Source: a virus. From it: a stretch of DNA of 28,586 bases. This document shows positions 684-25,028 of the stretch, in pieces. The stretch lies in IMG/VR virus record IMGVR_UViG_3300024326_000025, positions 1 to 28,586 of that record; one strand, given 5' to 3'. The notes beneath the pieces are model-generated. The model was given only the letters and a program-made list of their open reading frames with translations, was not told the origin of the DNA and did not search any database. The position numbers and the translations under genes were made by a program. Position 1 is the first letter of the stretch, and each line of letters begins with the position of its first letter.

Positions 684-3600
684 TTAACTTCTAAGCGAAC
701 CTCCCAGTCTCTTCTCTTCCCTAATTACTTCAAGAACCTTATCTTTAATTTGTTTTGCAAGTTCCTGTCTTTTCTTATTATCCTCCATAGCTCCAGAGCT
801 TTCTGTCTTTTCTCGACCCTCAGAGCTAGAACCACCACCTCCATTGGAGTTGCCTGAACCGCCCGTTACGGTTATATTGATTTCCCCAGCATTTTCTCTG
901 GTGACGTCAATAAGCTCTTCCATTTTTTCGATAAGTTCTTCTGATGATTCTCCGCCTACTCCCTGTTCTGTTCCAGCATTTGCGGCTTCCAGATTACCCT
1001 GTCCTATTCTTTGTGTTGCGGCACTGTTTAAAACAAACTCTCCGCCAGTCAACATTGCTGGAACGTCATCTATTCCTGTTCCGTTTGGTATATATCCTCC
1101 AGTCGCTCTAGGATAAACGCCTGTACCAGTACCAACACCACCTTGGTAAGTATTAAGGTTGTCTTCCAGTTGTAACGCTTTTGGTATATTACCAAGACCA
1201 ATCCTCTTGTCTAAATATTGCTGGACAAAAGGAGTATTTATGTTGTCTTTAAAATATTGATTTGAATTAAGAGAAACGCCGCCTCTTTCATTGAACATAT
1301 TAGAGAGTCCACCATAACTTTGTGTTTGGCCAGGTAAACTACCCCCACCTAAGAAACCTTTAGCTCCTATTTTAAATTTATCTAAACGGCTAAGTACTGT
1401 TCCGTCAGCTTTTGCCAAGGCTTCTGCACCTTTTACAGCATTACTAGCCCCATTAATTCCAGATGTAATACCAGCCGACACAAAGGTCATAGCTAGATTA
1501 GTTAGTATTGCTTTTCTTTGTGCTTTTTTGGCCTTCTTTTCTTCTTCTCTTCTCTTTAAATATGCAAAATAATCTTTTTGATATCCAACATTTAATTCAA
1601 AAGCTTGACCTTTTGCATCCCTAGTTGCTTCTTGCAGCGGAGTATTTCTATTCCTACCAAAATTAGTCAACCTAACACTCTCAGGCTCCAAAGCTAACAC
1701 AGCTGCACCAGCTGAAGGAGAACTTATATAGTCTTTTTTACCAGAAGTAAAACCTTGAGTTGCAAAATCCAATAAGTCATTTGCTCCCGTTATGTTCCCA
1801 GAATCATAAAGCCCTGGGGCAAAGAAATCTCCACCTTTGCCTGTTTGTCTTTTGTATTTAAAGTTTTCGTCCCGCTTGTTTCCAAATATATCAGCTTGTA
1901 CAAGTCCTCCGTTTGCAAATTTCTGAACAGCACCCTGATTAACTTTATCAAGAAATCCTGGGCCATATTTATCTACTGATTTTTTATTGAGAACAAATTC
2001 GCCTCCCATTGTCATTGCTGGAACAGAGCCTGAAAGAGCATCAGGTACAACCTTGGAAGATTTTTGCTTAATCTCGTTCAAAAAATCAACTGCTATAGTC
2101 TTACCAAAAGATTCTGTGTTTGTAGCTTGTTCTGGTTGTGCCTGAGAATTCCATCTAGAAATAGGTATACCAGACTCAACCCTACCAGTCACAAATGGAG
2201 ATTTTTCTATTCTTGTGGTATTTTCAGAACTTGCCCCTACAGTCCACCTAGATGCCTCTAAACCAGATTCTGTTCTACCAGATTTACTAGGCTGTTTAGC
2301 TGGATTTGGCTGACTTGCTTCTTTAGTCCATTTGGATACAACTATTCCAGACTCCGAACGAACCTCTTGATCCTCTTCTTCGAAATACTCCCTCTCAAAA
2401 TCTTCTTTACCTTCGTATACTGATTTAGGCGTCCATCTGCTAATGAGAACTCCAGAATCAGACCTATAATTCAGGCCTTTTTCAAGTTCTGATTTTTTTG
2501 CATTTAAATAGGACGATTCCCTAGTCCAAGAAGATGCCAAAAGTCCAGACTCTGTTCTAACGTCTCCTGAAGGCTCTCTATAACCATCCCTCTCTTCTGT
2601 TCTGTCTGATCTTGGGGTCCAACTCGAAGATTGAGTCCCAGACTCAGTCCTCACCATTCCGCCCTGATTATAGCCTTGTATGTTTCCCTGATTCAAGGCG
2701 TTCATGAAGTTAGGGCCATACTTTTGCACCGCGCTTTTCTTCATCACATACTCTCCACCCATTAATACTGCTGGCACATCGTCTTTTGTTCCAGAGCCTC
2801 CAGAAATCATACCACCTTCAGCAAGAGCTGGCGCACTGCCAAATACAGATCCCAAAGCACCCGCACCCTGCCTAAATAAATTATCAAGGCTTGCTTTAGC
2901 CATTCTGCTGGCAAAGTCCGATGCGGCGCTTCTAAGAACATCGCCCAAGCTTTCACCCTTCGTTATAGCGTCTACCATACCGCTAGATAGTGAATCTATG
3001 AATTGATCAGCTCCTTGAGCAAATGATTCTTTCAGTCTCTCTATCCCTTCTTCTCCAGTTATGCCAATCTTTTTAAGTCGATCACCAATTCCTTGGGTAA
3101 GTTTTTCTTCCGCCTCTATTTGCGTTTTTATTTTCTGGAGATCTTCGTTACTTGCTCCAGACTTAAGGGCATCCCTAAATTTATTCCTAAGTGCCAATAT
3201 CTTAATTGTCTTCTCAAGTTCAAATTCAAGATCTACTCTTGTGGCTGTTGATGTGGTTTTTCTTATTTCTGCTCTCTTTGATTCAAGGGCAATAAACTCT
3301 TGTTGCTTACGAGTAGCATCTTCGTTTGAATCTCCTTGTGATAAAGCGTCTTTAGCTACATTTACTCCTTGTATGTTTGTAATAGCGGATTGTATTTGAC
3401 TTGGGTCCGCAGAAGTGAAGGCGGTAAATTGAGATTGTGCAAGGCTATCTCCCAATCCCTGAATGGCATCTCTTGCTATATTGTTAAAGTTAGTTAAAGC
3501 GGCTGATAAAGCATTGGTTGTATTCGTTGCTTGTTGGGTCGCGTTTGCTATTGCTTTTTTGTTCTCTTCGTCTTGATCGGCGAATCTCTTATCGGCTTGA

Positions 3601-6600
3601 GCTCCTCTTTCTGCTGCTTGAGCTTTTGCTTCAGCTGCTTTTTGTGCTGCTGCCGCTTCTTGTAGTTCGACATCCTTTACTACCGAATTTGTATATTCCC
3701 GAGCTTCCCTAGATGCCTCAGCCATCATATCTCCCCTAACATTATAATTTGCAGCTGAAGAACTCATTGATTCAGCCTCTTGCACAGGATCGGCAGGGGC
3801 TCGTTGAGGCAGTAACCCATCACCATCTTCGAACCTTCCCTGAACTCTGTCTTTTATTTTACTAAACAGACTTTTAGCAGCATCACCGAAAAACTGGGTT
3901 GGGTTTGACAAAAATCGACCAAAAGCTAATAAATCACTAGAGAAATTTTCTGTAGCTGTGGCCAATACATCTATTGCGGTTTCTTCCCTAACCATCAGAG
4001 CAAGAGCACTGGTTTCTCTGGCCTTAGCATCTTCTGCAGCTTTGTTATCCGCGTTTATAATAGCCGACTCAACCTTAGGAGTTAGCGATACAATTTGCGC
4101 TCGAGTCTTTGCTCCAGTTATATCTTTTTCAAGAGTTCTCTTATCTGCCCCAGACAAACCCGAAGACCTAACATCCCTAATCAACTCATCCTGCAAACTC
4201 CTTATTAAGTTTCTAAGAGCAAGTGCGGCATCATTCTGAGCTTTCTCTATTCCGAGATTGGCTATTGCTTTGCTGTTAGAAAAGGAACCCCTTGAGCCCT
4301 TGCCTATATTTCCACCCTCTAAAGCCAGTCTTCTTGCTTCAATATCAAGATCGGCTTGTCGTGATTGAGAATCCTCAGAAGATCTTGATGAAGCTAGTGC
4401 CCTATCTCTTATTTTTAGAGCTCTCTCTTCCTCTTTTGTTTGAGCTTTAAGTATGTCAAGTCTAGCCTTAGCTAATTCGTTTCTAGCGTTTTCAACTATT
4501 GACGATGCTTTTATTGCATTACTTTCCGCAGTCACAGAGTCTACAAACTTTTTAGCTAAACCTGCTTTGACATCCAAGCTTATGAGTTGTTCCTTAAGAC
4601 TTTCTGCTATATCACCTTCAAAATCAGCACCAGCTCTAATTTTTTGATTGGTTTCTCTAAGCAGAGTATTTACTTTTTCGTAATCAGCGACAATAGTCTC
4701 TCCTGATCCAGTCGCAGAAGAAAGTCTCCTTATTGCTTCTGAACTCTGGACCCTCTTAGTGAACGCATCAGTAAGTTCGCTCGAAAGCTTCTTTTGGGAT
4801 TCCAGCCCTCTTATCGCCTCTGCTGCACTAGCTTTCTCAACCTCTCCAGATTCTTTAGACGCGGCTTTAAGTTCTAGAGCAAACTGTGCTTGACTTTTGA
4901 TTGAAGCTATAGCTTTAGCTCTTTCTATATTAGACTGTCGTTGTATCTCTAATATTTCAAGCTGTAGTGTTTTTTGTTCTTTGTTTTGAAGATTTGACTC
5001 TATGCCTCCCTTCAAGCTTCCAGCATCAACGCCTATTGCCTTTGCCGCCTGTGAAAGGAATATGCTTTTATCTACATTTCCTACCCCTAAACCAGCCAAG
5101 CTTTCTCTAAAGTTGTCTCTAGACCCAATCAGTGCGTTTCTTTGAGCATCGTTCAATGAGGCTATGAAATTCCGCACCTCTTTTGCTATTTCTTTTGCCG
5201 ACTTGGCCTCGCCTGTTTTGGGGTCTAATAGTTTTTCACTCGGTATTCTTGATATTATTCCGTTAACTATAGTTAAATCCGCTTGAGCAAGAGCTGCTTT
5301 TATTTCCCTCTCTTTTTTTTCGTCAACTACAGCTCCTCCTTTGGTGGTTCCGTCTGAAGGGACTAGTTTAGTTAAATCATCAAACCCAGTCGTAAATAAA
5401 CCTTTTAAAAATTGAGATGTATCCGAAGAGTCTCCGCGAATAGCTTCAAAAGCAGTTTTTCTTCTAAATCCAGCAGACTTGGCAAAATCATCATCTGGAG
5501 AGAATATTGCACTGGAAGCCCTCTCGACAACCTCCTTGTTTTTTTCTATTCTGGCTTTTTCTTGTAATTCAGCTATGCTTTCTTGACCAGTCAGTTTCTT
5601 ACCCCTGAAAGCCAACCTTTCTGCTAAAATAGCTTTAGCCAATGGTCCTCCCTGCTGTTTATTTTCCTGTGAAAACGGATCGCCGAGAGAATCGTTGAAT
5701 TCTTTTAGGCTTTTCGTGATTTTTTGTATAGGGGTATCAAGAACACCAAGAGATTGTCCTAAGCCTGTCAGAAACTTCCCTGCTAATCCCCCCAAGTCCA
5801 CACCAAACTTTTTGAGTATTGGATTTAATACCTGGAAGCCTATTACCGCAGAACCCAGAAGAGGAACAAATCTTCCAAAAGTAGACAATACTTTACCTAA
5901 ACCGAATTTTGCACCGCCAGCAAATCTAGATCCAAAAGCATTCGTTGCCGCTATAGCACCCACCTTGCCAGTACCAGCTTTTATCCCTGCCAGCCGTTGA
6001 GCACTTCCAGACTTAGCTAAATTTGCCCCAAAACCGTCCTTTTTAACCCCAATCCCAAAACCAGGTTTGATACCTAAGGACTGAAGAGCAAACAGCGTCG
6101 TAGTAGCCTGTGTCAACCCTTGGGTGACTTCAAGGAATCCTTTCGTAACATTGTCAGCTTCTGTTGACAACCCTCCTAAGGCACCTTGTAAACCAAAGCC
6201 TATAGCGCTTATACCAAATAACTTTCCAGCTGCATCTGTTGAAGAAGCTGCTGTTTTGTCTACTCCTTTTGATGCTGAATCTGCAGATTTGCCTAGTTTA
6301 TTAAGAGAATCCACAGTAGCTGTCCCTGGTCCAGAATTTGGCACTGGATCTTTTCCAAGCCCCAGCTTTACTGATCTTCTTGCAAAATTAGGAGTATAGC
6401 CGCTAGCCGCATTCTTAGGAATGGCTCCAGTAGGCTCATCTCTAGTGTTAGTTACAGCAAGACCATTCGGGTTTTGACTGTTTCTTAATTTTCCGTCTTG
6501 GTTTATTCTTACTTGATTGATTGGGACACCAGCTTGTCTTTCTCTACCGATAGCTTCTTCAAGTGGACTTTGGTTTTGTGCGAAGTTTGGTATGTAACCA

Positions 6601-9290
6601 GATGCAGATCTCTTTTTAAAACTATCAAAAAGAGTTACGGGTACAGGTTTATTTTTACTGCCACCCAGACGAGCAAAATCCTCGTCAGTTATCTTGTATT
6701 TTTCCCTAGCAGCAGCCCTGTCTATATTGCCCCTTTTTGCTGATTGAGTACCTTTCTTAAAGGCAAAAGCAGCTTCCTTGCCAACTAATACGTCAAAAAA
6801 CTTTTTAGCGGCTGACTGCTGGAGATCCTTACTATTAGACCCTTTGACTTCCGCTCCTCTATCACCAGCTCCTGGCTTTACTCCAAAAGCGTCATACAAG
6901 TTCTTAGATTTAGGAAGATCTATCCTTGAGTTGTCTGTCCTGTCTGAAAAATCCTGAAATTGGGGGTCCTCTAATAGAGAGGCTAAAGCTATTTCGAAAA
7001 TACTTCCAGACAAAGAATTTACAGCACCTTTTTGAAATCTGCTTTTTAAATCATTTGCTTTTCTGCCATTGAGGTCGGTTGGTCTTCCTATTTCTTTAGA
7101 TGTTCTAACGGCTTCGTCAGCCCCTAATTGCCTAATACTTGTCTCTAAACCGTCTATAAAAGATGTTCCACCTTTGTCTCCCCTTGGTTTTAGTGATTGG
7201 TATGTAGGTACGAAAACCTCATACACCAATTCTTTTGGCAATCCTTGTTTGATGGCTTCTGCCTCACTGTCATACACCCTTGTATCACCTTTTGGGCCTT
7301 TACCAACAAAAAACTTTGGGTTAGTATCAGGACCCTGAGACCCAGTCAACAAAACCAAATCTTTGCCGACATTAGCTTTTTTCTGTGCGAAGTTGGGTAT
7401 AAACCCTCCAGCTGCATTTATCTTCTTAGCACCAGTTGGTAGCCCCATTGACTTGACCATGTCTTGGTTAAAGATAGCAGATCCACCACCAGCAAAATTA
7501 GGAACGATATACTCACTATTATTAGCGACCATTGTTCCTTTTTGTCCTCCGCCAAATGCGAAATTAGGAATAACAACTGGCTTTGATCCTCTTGGTGCGC
7601 CACCAACGCCGCTATTAATATCTTTTTGTTCAGCTCCTACAGGTAAATATCCGCCAGCAGCTCTTTTTGCTCTACCAACAGAACCAGACCGAGCAACAGG
7701 ACTTGCTATTCCAGCCGAGATAGCATTAATTTGAGATAACGTAGAAAGCTGCTGCTTCAGAGCTTCGTTAAAGAACTGTGCTTGTTGAGCCCTTTTTTGT
7801 TCTACTGTTACGGAAGAGTTTTCTATAGTAAGAATTTGTTCTCTTATGCTCTTGTCGGATAACAAAGTTCCAATTATCTGCTGCTGTGTAGCCGCGACTC
7901 TTTTTGCCTCCTTGTTTAAATTAAAGAATGTTTTTACAGATTCTAAACCAAACTTAGCTAGTTGACCTGATAATTTCAGAATTAAAACACCAAACAAAGC
8001 TAGTCCGCCTTGAATTAACGCCGTCCCCAAGCCTTTGACAATACCTCTTGCAAACTTTCCTCCCAATCCTTCGCCGTCTAGTATTTTCTCAGCGCCAGTT
8101 GCTAAGTTGTTAAAGAAATCTAACAACGTTCTAAAAGTATCTGTCACTCCAAGTTCACCTAGAGTATTAGCAAGCTCTTTAACGCTCAGTGTCGTTCTGT
8201 TAATCGCTGCTGATAACGTTTGGTTAAGAGCTTCGTTTTTCTTGTAAGCTTGGTCTGACGCATTTCTAAATGCCTCTGTAGCCTGTATAGCTACCGAAGT
8301 CTCGCTACTATAATCGGAAAGAGCAGCAAGCAAAGGAGCGATCTGGAAACCACCACCGATTTTTTGAGTTATATCCCTAACCTCTACATCCCCAAGATTT
8401 TCTATTTCTTTTGCAAGGTTTTCTATAAGCTTTGTAGCTGGCAATATCTTGCCCTGTAAATCTGTAACTTGTACACCAATACTACTAAGTAGTTCTAAGT
8501 TTTCAGACCTACCAATACGAGTAAAAATTGTTTTAAAGGAGTTACCAATAACAGCTCCACCACGCGCTGTTTTCTGCTGAACTGCGGTTATGATGCCCCC
8601 AAGTTCGTCAATACTAACACCAGCTAATTCTGCAACAGATGCAGAACGCTTAAAACCTTCAATGAGGTCTCTTTCTGATACAGCGAATTGGTTAGCGGCA
8701 TTACTAATCTTGTTGAGAACTTCTCCAGTGGTTAAACCAGCTTTTGTGAAACTGTTAACCGCCGCAGTCAATCCAGATACCGCTTCAGCAGCACTTATGC
8801 CAGAAAGTCTTGATAAAATAAGCGAATCGTTAAGTCTTTTTGTAACCTCTGTAGCACTTAAACCCTGTCTTGAAAGTTCCAATGCTGCATCGGCAACGGT
8901 ATCAAATGTTTGTTCGGTACCTTTAGCTATGTCGAAAATCTGAGTTTTTAAAGCATTCAAACCAGATACGTTGGTTTGGAGTATGGAGTTTATTTTAGCT
9001 AAACTTTTTTCTACCTCTATTGTAGTTGACACTAAAGCTTTAAATGACTGAACAACACTATTAATGATTCCAACGGAAGCTCCAAAAGCCAACACCCTAG
9101 CGTTAGCTGCCTCCATCGACTTAGTAAAGTCGTCTGCTTGTCCAGTTATGCGGCCGAGAGGCTGAGATAAAGACTTGATGTCTTTAGCGTTTGTGCCTAA
9201 ATTAATTTTTAGATTTTTTCCAGCTGACTTTGCAGCATTCTGGATACTCTTCTCTAAACCTGTTTGTACTACTGGAACTCTTATTGGCAT
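684..9290 (-). CDS. Tail tape measure protein with embedded extra modules (2868 aa)
   Basis: This protein sets tail length, fills the tube lumen and is released at infection. Residues about 50-450 resemble the TP901-type tape measure core (helical, with T-x-D-x-V-A-D-A-A-L-E-L-S-R-Q-G and V-S-G-L-T-A-A-V). A hydrophobic segment lies at about 420-440 and others near 1024-1044 and 1140-1160. Residues 546-970 carry repeated IPNFA motifs and a nuclease-like module; about 1215-2095 is mostly helical and charged; 2166-2771 contains three G-G-E-[YF]-V elements and six R-x-E-S-G...W-T repeats; the C-terminus is a Gly/Ser-rich linker followed by a charged helix. No lysozyme or peptidase domain was recognised. 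The ATG at 9288-9290 has AAAAGG close upstream. At roughly 1.5 angstroms per residue this would span over 400 nm if all of it were stretched; the inserted modules make that an upper limit. Size, position after chaperone candidates and core motif make the call firm. Confidence 0.95.
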   Translation of the reverse strand: MPIRVPVVQTGLEKSIQNAAKSAGKNLKINLGTNAKDIKSLSQPLGRITGQADDFTKSMEAANARVLAFGASVGIINSVVQSFKALVSTTIEVEKSLAKINSILQTNVSGLNALKTQIFDIAKGTEQTFDTVADAALELSRQGLSATEVTKRLNDSLILSRLSGISAAEAVSGLTAAVNSFTKAGLTTGEVLNKISNAANQFAVSERDLIEGFKRSASVAELAGVSIDELGGIITAVQQKTARGGAVIGNSFKTIFTRIGRSENLELLSSIGVQVTDLQGKILPATKLIENLAKEIENLGDVEVRDITQKIGGGFQIAPLLAALSDYSSETSVAIQATEAFRNASDQAYKKNEALNQTLSAAINRTTLSVKELANTLGELGVTDTFRTLLDFFNNLATGAEKILDGEGLGGKFARGIVKGLGTALIQGGLALFGVLILKLSGQLAKFGLESVKTFFNLNKEAKRVAATQQQIIGTLLSDKSIREQILTIENSSVTVEQKRAQQAQFFNEALKQQLSTLSQINAISAGIASPVARSGSVGRAKRAAGGYLPVGAEQKDINSGVGGAPRGSKPVVIPNFAFGGGQKGTMVANNSEYIVPNFAGGGSAIFNQDMVKSMGLPTGAKKINAAGGFIPNFAQKKANVGKDLVLLTGSQGPDTNPKFFVGKGPKGDTRVYDSEAEAIKQGLPKELVYEVFVPTYQSLKPRGDKGGTSFIDGLETSIRQLGADEAVRTSKEIGRPTDLNGRKANDLKSRFQKGAVNSLSGSIFEIALASLLEDPQFQDFSDRTDNSRIDLPKSKNLYDAFGVKPGAGDRGAEVKGSNSKDLQQSAAKKFFDVLVGKEAAFAFKKGTQSAKRGNIDRAAAREKYKITDEDFARLGGSKNKPVPVTLFDSFKKRSASGYIPNFAQNQSPLEEAIGRERQAGVPINQVRINQDGKLRNSQNPNGLAVTNTRDEPTGAIPKNAASGYTPNFARRSVKLGLGKDPVPNSGPGTATVDSLNKLGKSADSASKGVDKTAASSTDAAGKLFGISAIGFGLQGALGGLSTEADNVTKGFLEVTQGLTQATTTLFALQSLGIKPGFGIGVKKDGFGANLAKSGSAQRLAGIKAGTGKVGAIAATNAFGSRFAGGAKFGLGKVLSTFGRFVPLLGSAVIGFQVLNPILKKFGVDLGGLAGKFLTGLGQSLGVLDTPIQKITKSLKEFNDSLGDPFSQENKQQGGPLAKAILAERLAFRGKKLTGQESIAELQEKARIEKNKEVVERASSAIFSPDDDFAKSAGFRRKTAFEAIRGDSSDTSQFLKGLFTTGFDDLTKLVPSDGTTKGGAVVDEKKEREIKAALAQADLTIVNGIISRIPSEKLLDPKTGEAKSAKEIAKEVRNFIASLNDAQRNALIGSRDNFRESLAGLGVGNVDKSIFLSQAAKAIGVDAGSLKGGIESNLQNKEQKTLQLEILEIQRQSNIERAKAIASIKSQAQFALELKAASKESGEVEKASAAEAIRGLESQKKLSSELTDAFTKRVQSSEAIRRLSSATGSGETIVADYEKVNTLLRETNQKIRAGADFEGDIAESLKEQLISLDVKAGLAKKFVDSVTAESNAIKASSIVENARNELAKARLDILKAQTKEEERALKIRDRALASSRSSEDSQSRQADLDIEARRLALEGGNIGKGSRGSFSNSKAIANLGIEKAQNDAALALRNLIRSLQDELIRDVRSSGLSGADKRTLEKDITGAKTRAQIVSLTPKVESAIINADNKAAEDAKARETSALALMVREETAIDVLATATENFSSDLLAFGRFLSNPTQFFGDAAKSLFSKIKDRVQGRFEDGDGLLPQRAPADPVQEAESMSSSAANYNVRGDMMAEASREAREYTNSVVKDVELQEAAAAQKAAEAKAQAAERGAQADKRFADQDEENKKAIANATQQATNTTNALSAALTNFNNIARDAIQGLGDSLAQSQFTAFTSADPSQIQSAITNIQGVNVAKDALSQGDSNEDATRKQQEFIALESKRAEIRKTTSTATRVDLEFELEKTIKILALRNKFRDALKSGASNEDLQKIKTQIEAEEKLTQGIGDRLKKIGITGEEGIERLKESFAQGADQFIDSLSSGMVDAITKGESLGDVLRSAASDFASRMAKASLDNLFRQGAGALGSVFGSAPALAEGGMISGGSGTKDDVPAVLMGGEYVMKKSAVQKYGPNFMNALNQGNIQGYNQGGMVRTESGTQSSSWTPRSDRTEERDGYREPSGDVRTESGLLASSWTRESSYLNAKKSELEKGLNYRSDSGVLISRWTPKSVYEGKEDFEREYFEEEDQEVRSESGIVVSKWTKEASQPNPAKQPSKSGRTESGLEASRWTVGASSENTTRIEKSPFVTGRVESGIPISRWNSQAQPEQATNTESFGKTIAVDFLNEIKQKSSKVVPDALSGSVPAMTMGGEFVLNKKSVDKYGPGFLDKVNQGAVQKFANGGLVQADIFGNKRDENFKYKRQTGKGGDFFAPGLYDSGNITGANDLLDFATQGFTSGKKDYISSPSAGAAVLALEPESVRLTNFGRNRNTPLQEATRDAKGQAFELNVGYQKDYFAYLKRREEEKKAKKAQRKAILTNLAMTFVSAGITSGINGASNAVKGAEALAKADGTVLSRLDKFKIGAKGFLGGGSLPGQTQSYGGLSNMFNERGGVSLNSNQYFKDNINTPFVQQYLDKRIGLGNIPKALQLEDNLNTYQGGVGTGTGVYPRATGGYIPNGTGIDDVPAMLTGGEFVLNSAATQRIGQGNLEAANAGTEQGVGGESSEELIEKMEELIDVTRENAGEINITVTGGSGNSNGGGGSSSEGREKTESSGAMEDNKKRQELAKQIKDKVLEVIREEKRLGGSLRS
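978..2795 (-). repeat. Three P-A-x-x-x-G-G-E-[YF]-V elements in the tape measure
   Basis: Copies lie at residues 2172-2201 (nucleotides near 2688-2777), 2423-2452 and 2743-2772. Each reads V-P-A, then G-G-E-[YF]-V, then a K/N-rich helix and G-x-x-x-[FL]-x-x-x-x-N-x-G. From memory, elements of this kind (often preceded by D-D-V-P-A) recur in the C-terminal part of many phage tape measure proteins, so they support the family call. Copies 1 and 3 have D-D before V-P-A; copy 2 does not. Function is not established. Confidence 0.85.
2145..2660 (-). repeat. Six R-x-[ED]-S-G-xxx-S-x-W-[TN] repeats in the tape measure
   Basis: Repeats begin at residues R2214, R2245, R2276, R2311, R2339 and R2370, giving spacings of 31, 31, 35, 28 and 31. 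In all six, the Arg and the Trp are exactly ten residues apart, and the S-G pair and the Ser before [SRK]-W are invariant. Linkers between copies are charged and not conserved. The array lies between two G-G-E-[YF]-V elements. Selection on the motif but not the linkers suggests repeated short binding peptides on a flexible chain; the partner is unknown. Confidence 0.9.
6381..7655 (-). repeat. IPNFA motif array inside the tape measure
   Basis: Five close copies of [IVT]-P-N-F-A occur in tape measure residues 574-578, 596-600, 631-635, 900-904 and 966-970. Three are preceded by G-[FY]. Degenerate relatives (G-G-Y-L-P at 546-550; G-G-Y-I-P-N-G at 2731-2737) lie outside the run. Between copies 3 and 4 sits a 260-residue nuclease-like module, and between copies 4 and 5 a module of about 60 residues containing G-R-E-R-Q-A-G, L-A-V-T-N-T-R-D-E-P. 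The motif behaves like a punctuation mark between cargo modules. Its function is unknown to me; a protease site, an anchoring peptide or a linker are all possible. Confidence 0.9.
6606..7385 (-). other. PD-(D/E)XK nuclease-like module within the tape measure
   Basis: Tape measure residues about 636-895, bounded by IPNFA motifs. Residues 761-770 (S-G-S-I-F-E, E766) form a predicted helix; D791 and D800 (L-Y-D-A-F-G) lie on the following strands; E814-x-K816 sits in G-A-E-V-K-G; then comes a helix with paired Gln (822-835) and a strand (A-F-A-F). This E ... D ... E-x-K order matches the alpha-beta-beta-beta-alpha-beta core of restriction-endonuclease-fold enzymes. The spacing D800 to E814 is typical. 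No domain search was possible, so the assignment rests on motif order. If active, it could cut host DNA or help phage DNA entry; it could also be an inactive fold. Confidence 0.55.
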
Positions 9291-13395: not shown

Positions 13396-14562
13396 ATGGC
13401 AAGAAACAGAGTAATTTATCAATCAGAGGCGCTTTTCACTAGTAAAGACTACGATTCTCTAAGCTTAAGCGATCACACGCAGCTTCACAGAGTTCAAAGC
13501 GCAAACTACGGCTTCACAATTAACCGACAGGATGTTAACCAATTTGGTAACCTTGCAAGAATCGATTCTATCATTCTTGAAGCTCCTACAGTAAATTTTG
13601 ATGTAACATACTATCCAACTAATGGATTCAACGAAAGGGCTTTGGACTTTTACGTTCAAAACACCAACAACCCAGGTAAAGCACAATTTGCTTCTGGACA
13701 CCTAGCAGCAGGATCGGGTCAAAACCTATATATCCTTACTGTTCCAGAGGGAAAGGACGCTAACCTTAATAAAGATACTGGAGAAACAGAAAACACAGTA
13801 ATTGGAATCGGAAACGCTTTCCTGACTGATTACACATTAGACCTCTCTGTTGGATCTCTCCCAACCGCAAGTATTTCATTCGAAGCTTCCAACATTATTT
13901 CAGATACAACGATCTCTGGAGACAATGGTGTCAGTGGCTTCTCTGGAATTACAACTCCTGCAGTTAACCCTGAAATTGGACAACCTCTTCCAGGATTTGC
14001 AACTATTCCTTTCGCTACTGGAAACTCACACAGTGGAGATTACGTAGCAGACGGAGAAGATAAGCTTGCAGCACTTCGACCTGGAGATATTAAGTTAGAC
14101 CTTTCTAATTTTGATGGAACACTTCTTAGTGATCTATCGGAAGGCAACGGAATCCATGTTCAGAGCGCTTCTTTGTCAATACCACTTTCCAGAACACCTA
14201 TTGAAAGACTTGGTTCTAAATTCCCATTTGCAAGGGTCGTAGACTTCCCTGTTAATGCAACGCTAAACATCAACGCTGTCGTTAACACGATGGATGCAAA
14301 CAACCTTGCTAGCATGATTAGCGGTTGTGGATCACAAGACACTCAAGACGTATTCCTCACTCTTATGCAGTGCGGTGGTACCGAAACAGGTATGCAGATC
14401 GAACTTAAAGGTTGCACGATTGATTCAGAAAGCTTCTCGTCAAGTATTGGATCTAACAAGAGTGTTGATCTGACCTTTTCTACTCAGATCGGTGGAACTA
14501 GAGACGTCAATAACGGTGTATTCATTAGCGGAAGCAATGATACAAAACTTCCTTGGGAGTAA
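13396..14562 (+). CDS. Major tail tube protein, copy 1 (388 aa)
   Basis: Beta-rich, cysteine-poor structural protein with no signal peptide, directly followed by a close paralog. Residues 32-58 are identical, at identical positions, to the second copy (27 in a row, containing N-Y-G-F-T-I-N-R-Q-D-V-N-Q-F-G). A second shared block reads L-S-R-T-P-I-E-R, G-S-K-F-P-F-A-R-V-V-D-F-P-V-N-A-T-L, and the end carries D-S-E-S-[FY]-S-S-S-I-G-S-N-K in both. Codon choice looks more C-rich in third positions than in neighbouring hypothetical genes, as expected for an abundant virion protein. Tail tube identity is inferred from copy number, position after neck genes, and beta-rich sequence. The leader CTTAAAATAATACCGTC-ATG has no Shine-Dalgarno sequence. 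Confidence 0.75.
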   Translation: MARNRVIYQSEALFTSKDYDSLSLSDHTQLHRVQSANYGFTINRQDVNQFGNLARIDSIILEAPTVNFDVTYYPTNGFNERALDFYVQNTNNPGKAQFASGHLAAGSGQNLYILTVPEGKDANLNKDTGETENTVIGIGNAFLTDYTLDLSVGSLPTASISFEASNIISDTTISGDNGVSGFSGITTPAVNPEIGQPLPGFATIPFATGNSHSGDYVADGEDKLAALRPGDIKLDLSNFDGTLLSDLSEGNGIHVQSASLSIPLSRTPIERLGSKFPFARVVDFPVNATLNINAVVNTMDANNLASMISGCGSQDTQDVFLTLMQCGGTETGMQIELKGCTIDSESFSSSIGSNKSVDLTFSTQIGGTRDVNNGVFISGSNDTKLPWE

Positions 14563-14594: not shown

Positions 14595-15725
14595 ATGTCA
14601 AGAAACAGAGTAATTTATCAATCAGAGTCGCTTTTCGTTAGTAATAGCGCGACAGCGTCAACATCTGGAGATCACCATGAGCTAATCAGGGTCCAGAGTG
14701 CTAACTACGGCTTCACCATTAACAGGCAGGACGTCAACCAATTCGGAAACCTCGCAAGAATCGACTCTTTGGTTCTCGAGCCACCTACAGTCAACTTTGA
14801 CTTTTCATATTATATAACCGATGGTTTTAATGAAAAAGCTCTTGGATTTAATGTCACAGAGAATGCTCAGTTTGCTAGTGGCTTCTTAGAAAGCTCAAGT
14901 GGAAGGAACTTCTACATTGTCACCTCAGATGAGGGTCAAGATGCTACGACCTTTGCTGCGAACGACCCTTACAGCCTAATTGGAATCGGCAACGCCTTCC
15001 TTAGTGATTATTCAATCGACCTTTCTGTAGGTTCACTTCCTACAGCTAACGTTTCATTTGAAGCTTCAAATATCAACTCTCAAGGAGGAAACATTGAAGG
15101 AACTCAACCAAGCAACTTCCACATGACTGGTGACAGTGTTGCCATTGATGCTGAAATCGGAGAACCTATTACCCAAACCATCGAAGTACTAAGACCTAAG
15201 AACACTGGTCAAGACGGCGTTTCTGCCCTCAGACCTGGTGACATCTCAATCACCTTCCCTGGTTTTGATGGTGGCGCAGCAGAGTCTGGTACTATGGCTA
15301 AAATATCTGGAGCTGGTAAATTCCACGTTCAGAGCGCGAATCTTTCGCTCCCTCTTTCAAGAACCCCAATCGAAAGGGTTGGTTCTAAGTTCCCATTTGC
15401 TAGGGTTGTTGACTTCCCAGTTAACGCTACCCTTAGTGTCAATGCGGTTCTCAACGAAATGGAAGCTGGAAACCTTGCTGCCGCAGTCTCTGGCTGCTCT
15501 AACAGTCAAGGAGAAATCGCTATAACAATGAATTCCTGCGAGGGTTTACCTGCAATAAAGTGGACACTTAAAGGCGCTACTCTTGATTCTGAGAGTTACT
15601 CTTCAAGTATTGGTTCTAATAAGACCGTGGATCTCACCTTTGGAGTACAACTTGGTGGAATTGATGATATCGAAAACGGCATCATCTGTAGCGGTTCTGG
15701 ACAGAACAGACCAGTATTCTTCTAA
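14595..15725 (+). CDS. Major tail tube protein, copy 2 (376 aa)
   Basis: Tandem paralog of the preceding gene, 32 bp downstream, last gene of the cassette before a strong terminator. The start codons are aligned: codons 2-11 share a 29-base identical DNA run, whereas downstream blocks that are identical in protein differ at many third positions. The central region (about residues 85-130 and 165-210) is the most diverged, including loss of short loops; the C-terminal E-N-G-I-I-C-S-G-S-G-Q replaces N-N-G-V-F-I-S-G-S-N. One copy could form the tube and the other a minor or alternating ring, as in phages with two tube proteins. Leader CATTCTTAAAAC-ATG lacks a Shine-Dalgarno sequence. Confidence 0.75.
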   Translation: MSRNRVIYQSESLFVSNSATASTSGDHHELIRVQSANYGFTINRQDVNQFGNLARIDSLVLEPPTVNFDFSYYITDGFNEKALGFNVTENAQFASGFLESSSGRNFYIVTSDEGQDATTFAANDPYSLIGIGNAFLSDYSIDLSVGSLPTANVSFEASNINSQGGNIEGTQPSNFHMTGDSVAIDAEIGEPITQTIEVLRPKNTGQDGVSALRPGDISITFPGFDGGAAESGTMAKISGAGKFHVQSANLSLPLSRTPIERVGSKFPFARVVDFPVNATLSVNAVLNEMEAGNLAAAVSGCSNSQGEIAITMNSCEGLPAIKWTLKGATLDSESYSSSIGSNKTVDLTFGVQLGGIDDIENGIICSGSGQNRPVFF

Positions 15726-18688: not shown

Positions 18689-19387
18689 TTAAGAAATTTC
18701 GATATTGCTGCGATCAAAAGCTGCAGCGAACTTGTCTTTCATTGAAACCTCTTCTCTAGAAGCGGCCTCGTTAGAATTTGCGATTGAAGCGTCGGACTGC
18801 TCAACATCGTCGAGAACTTCCTCTGCTGTTTTTTCAGTAACCTCAGAGGCTTCTGAAACCTGCTCAACATCCTTGGAAAGTCTTTTTGCGACTTCCTCCT
18901 GAATACGGGCTTCCATCTTCTTTTCGAACTCAGCTTTGGCTTCTTTGCTTTTGTGCTTCCACACGATATTCATTTTTTCTTCAAATGATGCAAATGCCTC
19001 TTCTGTTTCGTCAAGTGATTTAAGCTCTTGAGCTAAAAACTCTTTGTCTTCGTCTTCGAGAGCAAATTTCTGATCGATGACGTCCATACGCTCGTTAAAA
19101 CGAGCAATTGCCATGTCGGCTTCTTGAGCTTCTTTGTATTCGGCAATTTCTTTTTGGGCTTCCTCAAACTTAGACTTTAATTCTTCTACTGAAGATTTAA
19201 GTTCTGCATGTTCGTTGGCTACAGCCTCTTTCTCTTCTTGTGCTTTAGTTAGCTCTGCGCGAAATTCCTCGTCTTTTTCTTTGATAGCATCTGCAAAGGT
19301 GCTGGTCATAGAAGCGACGGCTTCTTGCGAGAACTTCTTTTCGTTGAGAAGATCCTTCAGTTCGTTAATAACTTTTTCAGTTTCCAT
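18689..19387 (-). CDS. Possible internally started scaffold protein (232 aa)
   Basis: Same frame as the protease gene, starting at M279 (ATG 19385-19387), right where the protease region ends and the coiled coil begins. The leader AAAAAGAATAATTCT-ATG is A-rich like many starts here, without a clear Shine-Dalgarno sequence. Other phages encode their scaffold nested in the protease gene this way; here it is a proposal from domain layout. Confidence 0.4.
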   Translation of the reverse strand: METEKVINELKDLLNEKKFSQEAVASMTSTFADAIKEKDEEFRAELTKAQEEKEAVANEHAELKSSVEELKSKFEEAQKEIAEYKEAQEADMAIARFNERMDVIDQKFALEDEDKEFLAQELKSLDETEEAFASFEEKMNIVWKHKSKEAKAEFEKKMEARIQEEVAKRLSKDVEQVSEASEVTEKTAEEVLDDVEQSDASIANSNEAASREEVSMKDKFAAAFDRSNIEIS

Positions 19388-20221
19388 AGAATTATTCTTT
19401 TTAAGGTTTACATTAGTTTTTTCACTTTGTGAAATATTTTTATCTCTTTTGTCTTTTATTACTATAGGGTTTTCCTGATCTTTTCTCATATAAACTCCCT
19501 TTACGTCTGCTGCTGGATTGGTTGTATAGCCAATACCCAATGGATAAATCTTTCCAGTAATAAGCCTGTTGACTTCTTCGCCTTGGTCTGTTTTGCCTTT
19601 TCCACCAAAGGAACGAAGACACCCAACCATTTTTTCCATCTCCTCTGGATCGGAGATTATTCTTGCTTCTTCTACGTATTTACTACCAACAGCTAATACA
19701 AAATCAGAGAAGCCAACTTCCCAACTGGTAGAAACAGTATGGTACATTTCATCGCCTGAGCTGCATGACTTTTCTAAAGCTTCCGCGAAAGCTGAATTAG
19801 CTGATTTATAAACAAGAGCCCCTAGAGCTATGTTGAAGGGTTTTGTATAACCCTCAAGCTCATCAGCATTCATTATTCTGCTTGTTCCGTATTCGCTCCA
19901 GCCAGCGCTTGCTATATGACCAACGATGCGGTCTTTGTCATGCTCTATATTGGTAGGTTTGTGTATAAAGTTTTTTGTATACTCAATAGCTGTTTTAGAG
20001 TCTATTCCGTCTCCGTTTTTGTTAAACTTGTTTACAACCGCAGCGTTAAAAGCCACGCCCATGAGATCTATATTATCTTCGAAGTTTACGCCCTTAGGCA
20101 CAAGAGACTCTAAGTTATTAAGGGATGCTTTTGAGATAAAAGATTCGCCCCCAATATCACAGGAAAAAACCTCGGCTTCAAATGTCGTAGTATACTTATA
20201 TTCAGGCTTCTTTTTGCGCAT
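18689..20221 (-). CDS. Fused prohead protease and scaffold protein (510 aa)
   Basis: Residues about 10-240 are a prohead-maturation protease: F-N-K-N-G-D-G-I-D, K-P-T-N-I-E-H-D (H94), I-V-G-H-I and Y-H-T-V-S-T-S-W-E-V-G-F (S164/S166) match the His and Ser motifs of U9/U35-type prohead proteases. Residues about 280-460 are a long Glu/Lys-rich coiled coil, and the tail (460-510) is acidic and Ser-rich with a final F-D-R-S-N-I-E-I-S: a scaffold. The boundary (250-278) is Lys/Asn-rich. An internal ATG at 19385-19387 (M279) could yield a separate scaffold, as in lambda C/Nu3. The gene overlaps the portal end by 20 bp. After assembly the protease should degrade the scaffold part. Confidence 0.85.
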   Translation of the reverse strand: MRKKKPEYKYTTTFEAEVFSCDIGGESFISKASLNNLESLVPKGVNFEDNIDLMGVAFNAAVVNKFNKNGDGIDSKTAIEYTKNFIHKPTNIEHDKDRIVGHIASAGWSEYGTSRIMNADELEGYTKPFNIALGALVYKSANSAFAEALEKSCSSGDEMYHTVSTSWEVGFSDFVLAVGSKYVEEARIISDPEEMEKMVGCLRSFGGKGKTDQGEEVNRLITGKIYPLGIGYTTNPAADVKGVYMRKDQENPIVIKDKRDKNISQSEKTNVNLKKNNSMETEKVINELKDLLNEKKFSQEAVASMTSTFADAIKEKDEEFRAELTKAQEEKEAVANEHAELKSSVEELKSKFEEAQKEIAEYKEAQEADMAIARFNERMDVIDQKFALEDEDKEFLAQELKSLDETEEAFASFEEKMNIVWKHKSKEAKAEFEKKMEARIQEEVAKRLSKDVEQVSEASEVTEKTAEEVLDDVEQSDASIANSNEAASREEVSMKDKFAAAFDRSNIEIS

Positions 20222-22251: not shown

Positions 22252-24111
22252 TTAATCTAAGAACATCGGCGTGAATGTTCCTTGATTGGTTTCTATCTTG
22301 TCGTCAATCATATCATAATACACATGCATCATCCAGTTTGCTAGTATGAGGGCCGAATAGGAGTCCTTTCTCGCTTTATCAGCGCCTCTTTGTTTCCTTA
22401 AATTCAAAGGCAGGTCAAAGCTTTGTGTTCCTTGGGTAGATGTCGTAACCTGAACCATAGCACATTCCACTTTTATCAAATCCATCATATCTTTCTGATG
22501 TTCAACAAAATCAATCATTTTTGACGCTTGAGAAGATTCGTTATAGTTATTAATAAATTTAAGGTTCTTTATAGGAATATTTGTCTTCCTTTGGGTATTG
22601 TAATCGTCGTCCATAGCCGCACCAGCAAAGAATATTCTTTTATGATCAAAAGATGCCTGAAGTAACTCGTTTGCGTAGCGAATCCACTTAGAGCTTGGCT
22701 TTCTCAAGTAAACATAAGTTCTGTTGTCTTTATTATACTGTCTTTTTAAAGACCTCAAACCTTTATCGTACTCTTGATGATTATCTAAATCGGCGTCTAT
22801 GAGGTTTAATTTTATTTTTTTATCTTTAAATATACTGCTCTCATTACATGAGTTTAAAAACTGAACACCACCATTATAGTCACCAACAACAGCAATAATA
22901 TTAAAGTTTTCTAATACGTAAGCCATGTAGTTTATATGCGTCTTTAAGTTTGATCCTGAAAGAGCGTAACTATGAACAATAGTCCCTTTTTTTGTTTCTT
23001 TATTTATCTTAATGACAAGTATAGCGAAATCGTCAGAACTATCACTCTCAGACCAAGATGGGTCAAATCCAAGTATATACTCATCGGAAGGATGACCCTT
23101 AACCTCTACACATTGCCCCTCTCCATCTGGGATAGTACACGCCGCCATCTTACTAACCTTAAAATAACCAGAACTATCATCTGTAAATACAGCCATAAAC
23201 TCTCGGTCGAACTGAGATTGGCTCATTGTAGCCTTTGCTTGATCAATGAGGTTTTGATCGTATAATTGAGGAGGAGCACAATCATAACTAAAGTGCATTA
23301 TGGTTCTGTGAGCCTTGTCTTGCTCGTTTTCATTAAGAATCAATGATTCGTATTGAGTATACATCTTAAATAAATGCTCAAACCTATAAGACGCAGAAGA
23401 CAAACCAATAATTTTGTTGTTCGGCCACTTATGACGATCTTCCTCTTTCATTTTTCCCTGTTTGATCATCTCTGTTTCCACATCATGAATCTCTTGTCTT
23501 TCTGTTGGGTTTTTAATAACAGATAGAAATGGCATGATAACCTCATTCAAAACTTTCTCTGGCATGAGCAATAGCTCATCAATAATCATTCTCTCAAAAC
23601 GGAAACCTCGAAGCTTTTCTCCATCACCAAGAGGTAGAGCAGTAATCTTGCTTCGACCAAGTTCCATTACCCATTGATCATTAGCTTTTGATACCCTCGT
23701 AATACATTGAGAAAGAAATTCAGCTTTTGGACTTTGAGCTATCTCTTCCATCTTGGTAAATATCATTTTTGACTGTCGAAAAGACTTAGATATGATTCCA
23801 ATGTGAACACCTTGGTTTAAAATAGCGTCTAATAGCGCAAAAACGGCCGTAGAGAAGCTTTTGGACATTCCACGACTCCATATCCCCAAAAAGTAATCAG
23901 TCTCCATCATGGCCTTTATGGACATATGCTGGAAGGGGAACAATTTTACTCCAGTAATAAACTCAGCCGCAAAAGATGGATTTTGCCTCAAGAATTTATA
24001 AAGCAATAATTTTGCCTCCTCTTCTTCGAGGTATCCATCCATTTCCAGAATCTCTTTATTGATATCTGGGAACCTATTTCTAGATTCTTGTATTCCTGCT
24101 TCCCAACTCAT
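22252..24111 (-). CDS. terL: Large terminase subunit (619 aa)
   Basis: Packaging motor: ATPase plus nuclease. The ATPase has Walker A W-S-R-G-M-S-K-S (residues 78-85; Ser replaces the usual Gly before Lys, seen in other terminases), Walker B M-I-I-D-E (175-179, with E179 catalytic), and coupling motif I-I-G-L-S-S-A-S (234-241). An adenine-binding-like Q61 occurs in L-F-P-F-Q-H. The RNase-H-type nuclease has G-F-D-P-S-W (D350), V-V-G-D-Y-N-G-G (D411), and a C-terminal K-D-S-Y-S-A-L (third Asp). Its ATG overlaps the stop of the upstream nuclease gene (ATGA), implying coupled translation. The length is usual for the family. Confidence 0.96.
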   Translation of the reverse strand: MSWEAGIQESRNRFPDINKEILEMDGYLEEEEAKLLLYKFLRQNPSFAAEFITGVKLFPFQHMSIKAMMETDYFLGIWSRGMSKSFSTAVFALLDAILNQGVHIGIISKSFRQSKMIFTKMEEIAQSPKAEFLSQCITRVSKANDQWVMELGRSKITALPLGDGEKLRGFRFERMIIDELLLMPEKVLNEVIMPFLSVIKNPTERQEIHDVETEMIKQGKMKEEDRHKWPNNKIIGLSSASYRFEHLFKMYTQYESLILNENEQDKAHRTIMHFSYDCAPPQLYDQNLIDQAKATMSQSQFDREFMAVFTDDSSGYFKVSKMAACTIPDGEGQCVEVKGHPSDEYILGFDPSWSESDSSDDFAILVIKINKETKKGTIVHSYALSGSNLKTHINYMAYVLENFNIIAVVGDYNGGVQFLNSCNESSIFKDKKIKLNLIDADLDNHQEYDKGLRSLKRQYNKDNRTYVYLRKPSSKWIRYANELLQASFDHKRIFFAGAAMDDDYNTQRKTNIPIKNLKFINNYNESSQASKMIDFVEHQKDMMDLIKVECAMVQVTTSTQGTQSFDLPLNLRKQRGADKARKDSYSALILANWMMHVYYDMIDDKIETNQGTFTPMFLD

Positions 24112-25028
24112 TTTTCTTTTAAATATTTAGACCAAAAATAATTTACGTCCGTATTCCACAACTTCTTACCCATGACCAATATCTTAGGTATTATAAGTTC
24201 ACTCATCTCTCTAGACCCAGCAAAAACAAATTGAGAGCAGTCCGAATACTCTTTTTGTAAGGATCTCACATTATGAAAGACATAATCAAGTTTGTATTTT
24301 TTATAACTCTTGTCATTGTTTTCTTTTATCTCCTCAAACGGAAACTCCATAACAATAAACAAATAACAACCAAGATCTCTACATCTCTCTAGCTCTTTAC
24401 AAAACCTAGCGTAACCTACTGTTGTTGTTCCGCAGAAATCACCAAATGACTTCCTATCTACATATGTGTAATCGTAATCTTTAGCAGTAACACAGTAATC
24501 ACCAACATCTAACTTATATGGTTCTGAATTTTTAAATGATAGCGGTTGTTGTTCTCTTGTGTCTATCAATATTCTTCTGTCTGAATAATTATTAAAAAAC
24601 TCTTTTGGCAACCTCTCCCCCAATAATGGTTTAACATTAAACTCTTCACATGCATACGTGTAGCTGCCAAAATACTTTTTATAAATATCAATCGATGGCA
24701 AGCCAGCAGAGATAAGCTCCAACTCTGTTGGACCATACTCAAGGCCCTTCTCTGTGACTCTCTTTTTAAGCAGTTCTTTTATATATTTTTTGACTTCTTC
24801 TTTCTCACTCTTTTCTATCCACTCAGCAAGTTGATGAGGCTGAGAGAAATCTTTAGAAAAGTAGTCTTTGTGGTTCTTGAAAGGCAGAAGTTCGCCAGTA
24901 AGCTTGTTCTTTCTAGCGAAGTGCTTGACATAGTAATCCCCAAGAAACATTTTATGTTTCTTTATATGAGCATGAAGACTTCTCAGTGTTTCAAAGCTCT
25001 CGTCGCACTCTTTACATTTAAATGACAT
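24108..25028 (-). CDS. C2H2 finger / HNH-repeat-like / ERCC4-type nuclease (306 aa)
   Basis: Three modules. Residues 5-25: C-x2-C-x12-H-x3-H, a classic C2H2 finger. Residues about 98-135: G-P-T-E-L ... A-G-L-P-S ... Y-F-G-S-Y-T-Y-A-C-E-E-F, close to the short DNA-binding repeat that accompanies some homing endonucleases. Residues 150-290: ERCC4-type nuclease with I-L-I-D-T-R-E-Q (D156, R158, E159), L-D-V-G-D-Y (D174, D177), V-D-R-K-S (D191, R192, K193; V-E-R-K is the usual form), then R-F-C-K-E-L-E-R-C. It overlaps the upstream gene by 11 bp and the large terminase by 4 bp, so it belongs to the packaging operon. It could nick or cut concatemers, or resolve branched DNA before packaging, as HNH proteins do in other phages. 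An alternative is a fixed homing endonuclease. Confidence 0.85.
   Translation of the reverse strand: MSFKCKECDESFETLRSLHAHIKKHKMFLGDYYVKHFARKNKLTGELLPFKNHKDYFSKDFSQPHQLAEWIEKSEKEEVKKYIKELLKKRVTEKGLEYGPTELELISAGLPSIDIYKKYFGSYTYACEEFNVKPLLGERLPKEFFNNYSDRRILIDTREQQPLSFKNSEPYKLDVGDYCVTAKDYDYTYVDRKSFGDFCGTTTVGYARFCKELERCRDLGCYLFIVMEFPFEEIKENNDKSYKKYKLDYVFHNVRSLQKEYSDCSQFVFAGSREMSELIIPKILVMGKKLWNTDVNYFWSKYLKEK

Follow-up and report, generated by a model that had tools for sequence, protein, structure and literature searches.

What do five nearly identical pentapeptides mark in a single phage protein, when the stretches between them differ so widely in size? The window examined here is the whole 28,586-nt stretch of a virus genome from IMG/VR (record IMGVR_UViG_3300024326_000025), in which a first-pass annotation had noted five [IVT]PNFA motifs and suggested that they delimit exchangeable cargo. 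All five motifs were found where that annotation had placed them, on the minus strand and in one frame of one protein (P0001 residues 574-578, 596-600, 631-635, 900-904 and 966-970). Composition-preserving shuffles of this protein gave 0.0035 [IVT]PNFA motifs on average versus the five observed, and [IVTL]PN[FY]A is encoded in no other frame of the window, confining the motif there to this one protein.

The tape measure protein and its conserved frames

The motif-bearing protein has 2868 residues (window 684-9290, minus strand) and is a phage tape measure protein (TMP), a long late structural protein with PhageMin_Tail and TMP homology. Pfam identified PF10145 (PhageMin_Tail) at residues 124-312, and the matches in PHROG were to tail-length tape measure families. 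The features of the protein that are needed below are as follows.

684..9290, minus strand: TMP, 2868 aa (P0001); PF10145 at E 4.2e-27, PHROG TMP families at E down to 1.8e-42
8355..8921, minus strand: PhageMin_Tail domain, residues 124-312 (Pfam), in the N-terminus common to 178 of 181 family members tested among the matches listed
7386..7631, minus strand: frame 1, residues 554-635, the pre-cargo segment with motifs 1-3 (IPNFA, VPNFA, IPNFA); 30-sequence alignment and model
7557..7571, minus strand: motif 1 (VIPNFA); motif scan
7491..7505, minus strand: motif 2 (EYIVPNFA); motif scan
7386..7400, minus strand: motif 3 (GGFIPNFA), left edge of the cargo; motif scan and DNA junction comparison
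6594..7385, minus strand: cargo module, residues 636-899, a putative PD-(D/E)XK-type nuclease; conserved residues and AF2 model
6579..6593, minus strand: motif 4 (SGYIPNFA), right edge of the cargo; motif scan and junction comparison, pLDDT <50 (model residues 345-359)
6396..6578, minus strand: frame 2, residues 905-965, a small conserved post-cargo segment (INQDGKLRNSQNPNGLAVTNTRDEPTGAIP); alignment, model and clustering
6381..6395, minus strand: motif 5 (SGYTPNFA); motif scan

As had been noted, three of the motifs (3, 4 and 5) come after G-F or G-Y. The intervals, described as about 18, 31, 265 and 62 residues, follow that pattern, with counts of 17, 30, 264 and 61 residues, each one fewer. 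An alignment of 30 relatives revealed a variable core flanked by two conserved frames. Frame 1, of ~80 residues, holds about half of all the invariant columns, with the consensus GVGGAP...IPNFAFGGG..GTMVAN.SEY.VPN.AGGGSAIFNQDMV..MGLP.GAKK...AAGGYIPNFA, and its motifs keep fixed or nearly fixed spacing (22 and 35 residues) among the relatives. Frame 2, between motifs 4 and 5, has the consensus INQDGKLRNSQNP.GLAVTNTRDEPTGAIPN with many invariant columns, and its cluster has at least 42 members. Because the 17-, 30- and 61-residue intervals belong to these conserved frames, they are not modules; the suggestion that every interval is one holds for the 264-residue interval only, which is variable cargo.

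A model of the whole region (441 aa, 30 sequences) reached a pLDDT of 68.9 and gave no useful fold match. Frame 1 is predicted with low confidence (pLDDT mostly 35-50) and the motifs fall in low-confidence segments, while the cargo and frame 2 (pLDDT ~73-80) are better predicted. With low pLDDT taken as a hint of flexibility and not as equal to disorder, the model indicates that the motif probably lies in flexible linkers.

The C-terminal part of the TMP has repeats of its own. Residues 2213-2384 (window ~2138-2654) contain five to six degenerate copies of [VR]R[TSV][ED]SGxxxSxW, and three VPAxxxGGEFV-type motifs were seen near residue 2172, near residue 2424 and at residues 2731-2755 (window 1026-1100). 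The last of these reads GGYIPNGTGIDDVPAMLTGGEFVLN, where the GGYIPN half of the junction motif reappears.

Occurrence of the family and exchange of its modules

An IMG/VR search with the TMP returned 26 relatives, and IMG/VR pattern scans for encoded GYIPNFA, GFIPNFA and GYVPNFA returned at least 120 loci each. The family counts given here are thus lower bounds, biased toward these three spellings because the scans used them. At least 268 distinct open frames contain two or more motifs, with up to nine per frame, and at least 1042 instances were profiled, giving A-[AS]-x-G-[YF]-[IV]-P-N-[FY]-A, in which the P, N, aromatic and final A are fixed by the search itself. Looser copies with other residues after the F also occur, and two TMPs seemingly without cargo carry it between such copies. 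The N-terminus of the window TMP was matched by 178 of 181 frames among the matches listed (those whose first motif is preceded by 400 or more residues), and PF10145 was present in 11 of 12 sampled source contigs. TMP lengths outside the motif span vary as well (mean 1896, sd 332).

The first-pass annotation mentioned similar motifs in large environmental phage proteins, and such a distribution was confirmed: two or more motifs per frame were found for 108 of the 120 listed IMG/VR GYIPNFA loci, versus 4 of 107 in bacterial and archaeal genomes. The 107 loci came from 257 billion bases of such genomes, where ~180 would be expected by chance (a base-probability estimate), so that the motif is nearly absent from bacterial genomes, and the four multi-motif frames are all on MAG contigs of 4-30 kb that are possibly phage. 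Among phage isolates (50,697 phage records), tblastn with the region and with a composite of the two frames found nothing credible; isolate similarity to the TMP was restricted to residues ~20-470. The family consists of uncultured phages that are seldom, if at all, seen as prophages, and some members lie on contigs >100 kb. In the open-access literature we found no paper that brings PNFA and tape measure together.

Defining a module as a stretch of at least 60 residues between motifs and clustering at a BLAST E value of 1e-5, we obtained at least 472 unique modules in at least 124 clusters, in place of the same module always recurring between the motifs. The proposal of exchangeable cargo gained support from closely related TMPs, in which unrelated modules are swapped between proteins 90-98% identical upstream. 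For pairs of TMPs 70-99% identical over the 380 residues before the first motif, at least one module was without a counterpart at 30% identity in 216 of 295 (the pairs are not independent). The window TMP and that of relative L002 are 90% identical upstream and 3% identical in the module; L008 and L016 are 98% identical upstream, with modules at no more than 26%; and L113 and L142, 95% identical upstream, share a first module at 98% and differ in the second (18%). The C-flank of the compared pairs diverges too (median identity 24-46%), and other parts of the TMP are therefore mosaic as well.

At the DNA level, the similarity of the clearest pairs breaks at the motif, dropping there from high identity to ~3-5 of 15 bases. 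In the ungapped L008/L016 comparison, 12-15 of every 15 bases are identical up to the motif and mostly 3-7 of 15 beyond it, and mirror-image breaks mark the right boundary in L008/L015, L113/L142 and L072/L076. Pairs that were uninformative were anchored on different motifs or had an indel after the motif. A 2023 survey of mosaicism in phage proteins could not confirm genuine recent mosaicism in TMPs (PMC10684548); the module swaps in this family look like instances of it. The motif codons themselves are near background, with modest shifts, and 312 distinct 15-mers were counted among at least 1049 instances. Selection is therefore mainly on the peptide, and a DNA-level recombination site was rejected as the main reason for motif conservation, the codons varying about as they do elsewhere.

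The window module and others in the same slot

The window module falls in the commonest module type (at least 142 of the 472 modules), which conserves little except G-x-x-F-E...D...[DE]xK...K/Q. Conservation was assessed in 119 members of its cluster, at no more than about 88% mutual identity. Mean column identity across these divergent modules is 11%, and a few positions stand out. D156 and K181 in module numbering (D791 and K816 of the TMP) are invariant in 119 of 119; E131 (E766) is E in 98% and D in the remainder; module position 179 (E814) is always D or E; and position 195 (K830) is K in 86% and Q in 14%.

6993-6995, minus strand: signature residue E766
6918-6920, minus strand: signature residue D791
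6849-6851, minus strand: signature residue E814
6843-6845, minus strand: signature residue K816
6801-6803, minus strand: signature residue K830

The residues E - D - [DE]xK - K/Q follow one another as in PD-(D/E)XK nucleases, and the residue set of this superfamily (an acidic residue, D, [DE]xK and a downstream K/Q) is present in full. An AF2 model of the module alone, built with the 119 sequences, had a pLDDT of 87.2 and a pTM of 0.78. With this confident model, Foldseek returned no PDB or viral fold match, and VIA-align returned no PDB match (best Z 3.8 over 65 residues, chance level). The module profile against PDB sequences gave a best E value of 0.011, to lectins, which is not credible, and Pfam and PADLOC searches with all 119 modules gave scattered single matches and no recurrent family. 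No curated nuclease family profile matched, a feature that in so diverse a superfamily is supporting and not strictly defining; for this reason the module is termed putative and is not filed as a PD-(D/E)XK member. On the basis of the conserved residues, we predict that it is a PD-(D/E)XK-type nuclease, and think this likely.

Relatives carry one to several modules per protein, of different types; the window protein has one that is recognised. Pfam identified a staphylococcal nuclease (SNase; 1.9e-9), assigned to L123 by its sequence (VKDGDTIEALP...RLASVDAPE), a poly(A)/tRNA nucleotidyltransferase head in L410 (PolyA_pol; 1.6e-14), a GNAT acetyltransferase in L297 (2.6e-7) and a HIGH nucleotidyltransferase-associated region in L286 (HIGH_NTase1_ass; 6.2e-8). 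A HATPase_c_3 match in L280 (3.7e-5) fell just under the Pfam cut-off, and a ParB-like match (E 0.0049) was also below the cut-off. Reading by eye distinguished a P-loop type with a strict Walker A in 20 of 21 modules, a HAD-like type in which 7 of 7 modules show D-x-D-x-T, and ART-like modules where YRG occurs with strings resembling STS and ExE; kinase-like modules and modules bearing HExxH were likewise seen by eye only. Against the N-terminus of the window TMP, the frames of L410, L286, L280, L416, L402 and L279 gave E values <1e-80 and that of L123 gave 5.4e-46; the L297 frame is cut short and lies outside this comparison.

HAD-like modules are found in the TMPs of L062, L043, L116, L140 and L147, in the last four of these together with P-loop modules, a pairing that recalls polynucleotide kinase-phosphatase. 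Small modules in L376 (residues 1247-1357) and L016 (residues 1036-1135) start with DxDGDGIVT-like strings that bring to mind loops of the calcium-binding or dockerin-like kind.

Possible roles of the cargo and of the motif

We read the region, with a probability of roughly 0.55, as a cargo bay of the TMP whose exchangeable modules are delivered to the host and whose PNFA motif is a point of contact. The motif-bearing frames border a slot just after the conserved N-terminal domain, and this slot holds exchangeable modules, usually enzyme-like and one to several per protein; the window phage carries one, which is probably a nuclease of the PD-(D/E)XK type. TMPs occupy the tail tube and are ejected ahead of the DNA (PMC8718954), and the lambda TMP was labelled from the inner-membrane protein ManZ during injection (PMC13190303). 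Because the TMP leaves the tail before the DNA, the modules would be carried into the host with it and could act early, as infection begins, against the nucleic acids or defences of the host. PNFA is a short linear motif in the probable linkers, most likely contacting the tail tube, an assembly chaperone or another TMP chain, and such a contact would allow modules to be swapped without disturbing the ruler.

Two other accounts of the cargo were weighed against delivery of enzymes. The window module could be a structural or cell-wall-penetrating tail part whose conserved acidic and lysine residues serve metal binding or the shape of the fold, as the missing nuclease fold or family match might suggest. 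The residue pattern and its order fit a PD-(D/E)XK active site, however, and in relatives the slot is occupied by recognisable nucleic-acid enzymes, so that we consider this account improbable. The modules might instead be selfish insertions, homing-nuclease-like domains that spread through TMP genes and for which the motif is a tolerated landing site. That the commonest module type is nuclease-like (at least 142 of 472) would fit, as would the nuclease genes described at phage exchange boundaries (PMC10448857). Yet modules other than nucleases are numerous, conservation of the motif does not extend to its DNA, which would thus make a poor target site, and the junctions, read directly, are without intein-like ends; selfish spread therefore seems very improbable. 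An intein was rejected: the splicing residues (Cys/Ser at the start, His-Asn at the end) are absent, and the junctions read ...PNFA-module-...GY-IPNFA.

For the motif, the first-pass annotation had offered a cleavage site, a docking peptide and a pore-lining spacer, and we tentatively predict a recurring contact point, which is slightly preferred over the other two because motifs 1 and 2 stand at a fixed spacing where a cut frees nothing. A phage or host protease could cut the TMP in the virion or after entry and so free each module, as the shortness of the motif and its place in probable linkers at the edge of each module would allow. There are precedents: T5 pb2 is cut after R1127, separating its enzymatic domain (PMC10038345), and for polyvalent proteins a separation by peptidases of their own has been suggested (PMC5512222); HExxH-like strings were also seen by eye in modules of two relatives, L386 and L297. 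Cleavage nevertheless seems rather unlikely, since motifs 1 and 2 sit inside frame 1, their spacing (22 and 35 residues) hardly varies, and cutting there would release no module. Nor was any co-conserved protease identified. The motif is also missing from this phage's major head protein and is thus not an obvious GPO-like head-protease site, and the idea of a capsid-protease site was not supported.

More unlikely still is a mere flexible spacer or duplication remnant, kept by common descent and by the need for a linker that does not interfere. The place of the motif in probable linkers and the looser copies with other residues after the F agree with a spacer; the P, N and aromatic residue, however, recur in ~1000 instances while their neighbours vary (the search fixed PN[FY][AS]), and linkers without a binding duty usually drift. 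Beyond a simple contact, PNFA might be a general loading and release signal for tail-tube cargo, with the TMP accepting almost any enzyme module and delivering it to the host. This would be a modular equivalent, in phages, of the signals by which contractile injection systems load their cargo, and we hold it to be possible, if somewhat unlikely.

The nearest known concept is that of the polyvalent proteins of phages and conjugative elements (Iyer et al., 2017), in which many disparate domains share one injected protein (PMC5512222). Comparably, relatives carry several modules of different types in one polypeptide, injection with the DNA is predicted and the domain types overlap (ART-like, GNAT, ParB-like and nucleases). 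In contrast to polyvalent proteins, the tail ruler is the carrier here, its modules are bordered by frames and by a shared junction motif, and the window protein has a single recognised module; tape measure proteins are not mentioned in the text of the polyvalent protein paper (PMC5512222). MuF-fused head effectors and T4 Alt-type head ARTs (PMC9503650) are alike in that a virion structural protein carries or accompanies variable enzymatic effectors, but those are packaged in the head, as C-terminal fusions, whereas the present modules are internal to a tail TMP. T5 pb2 (PMC10038345) is likewise a TMP that carries an entry enzyme, released by cleavage; its wall-degrading domain is near the C-terminus, whereas the modules described here are varied, are internal, following the N-terminal domain, and as far as recognised are not wall enzymes. 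Polymorphic toxin systems similarly join a constant carrier to exchangeable effector domains. Polymorphic toxins vary at the C-terminus, whereas the TMP modules are inside the protein, at about residues 540-1000, between repeated motifs.

The best reading of the arrangement is a virion-delivered effector magazine within the TMP. If this is true, many environmental phages would use the tail ruler itself to store effectors that act early, in a slot overlooked by searches at the gene and domain level because TMPs are annotated by their N-terminus. The repeated motif would make the holding and release of proteins in the tail tube accessible to experiment with a single short peptide, and unknown anti-defence enzymes could be sought in the slot.

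Several neighbouring genes were noted in the window. A putative GPO-like head scaffold-protease gene (18689-20221, minus strand; PF05929 E 7.4e-05, below the cut-off) lies beside the head protein gene. An ERCC4-type nuclease gene (24108-25028, minus strand; PHROG 3490, 3.2e-11) is directly upstream of the probable large terminase gene, with an overlap of a few bases. On the strand opposite to the TMP, two tandem paralogous genes (13396-14562 and 14595-15725, plus strand) encode proteins of 388 and 376 aa that are possibly duplicated tail proteins.
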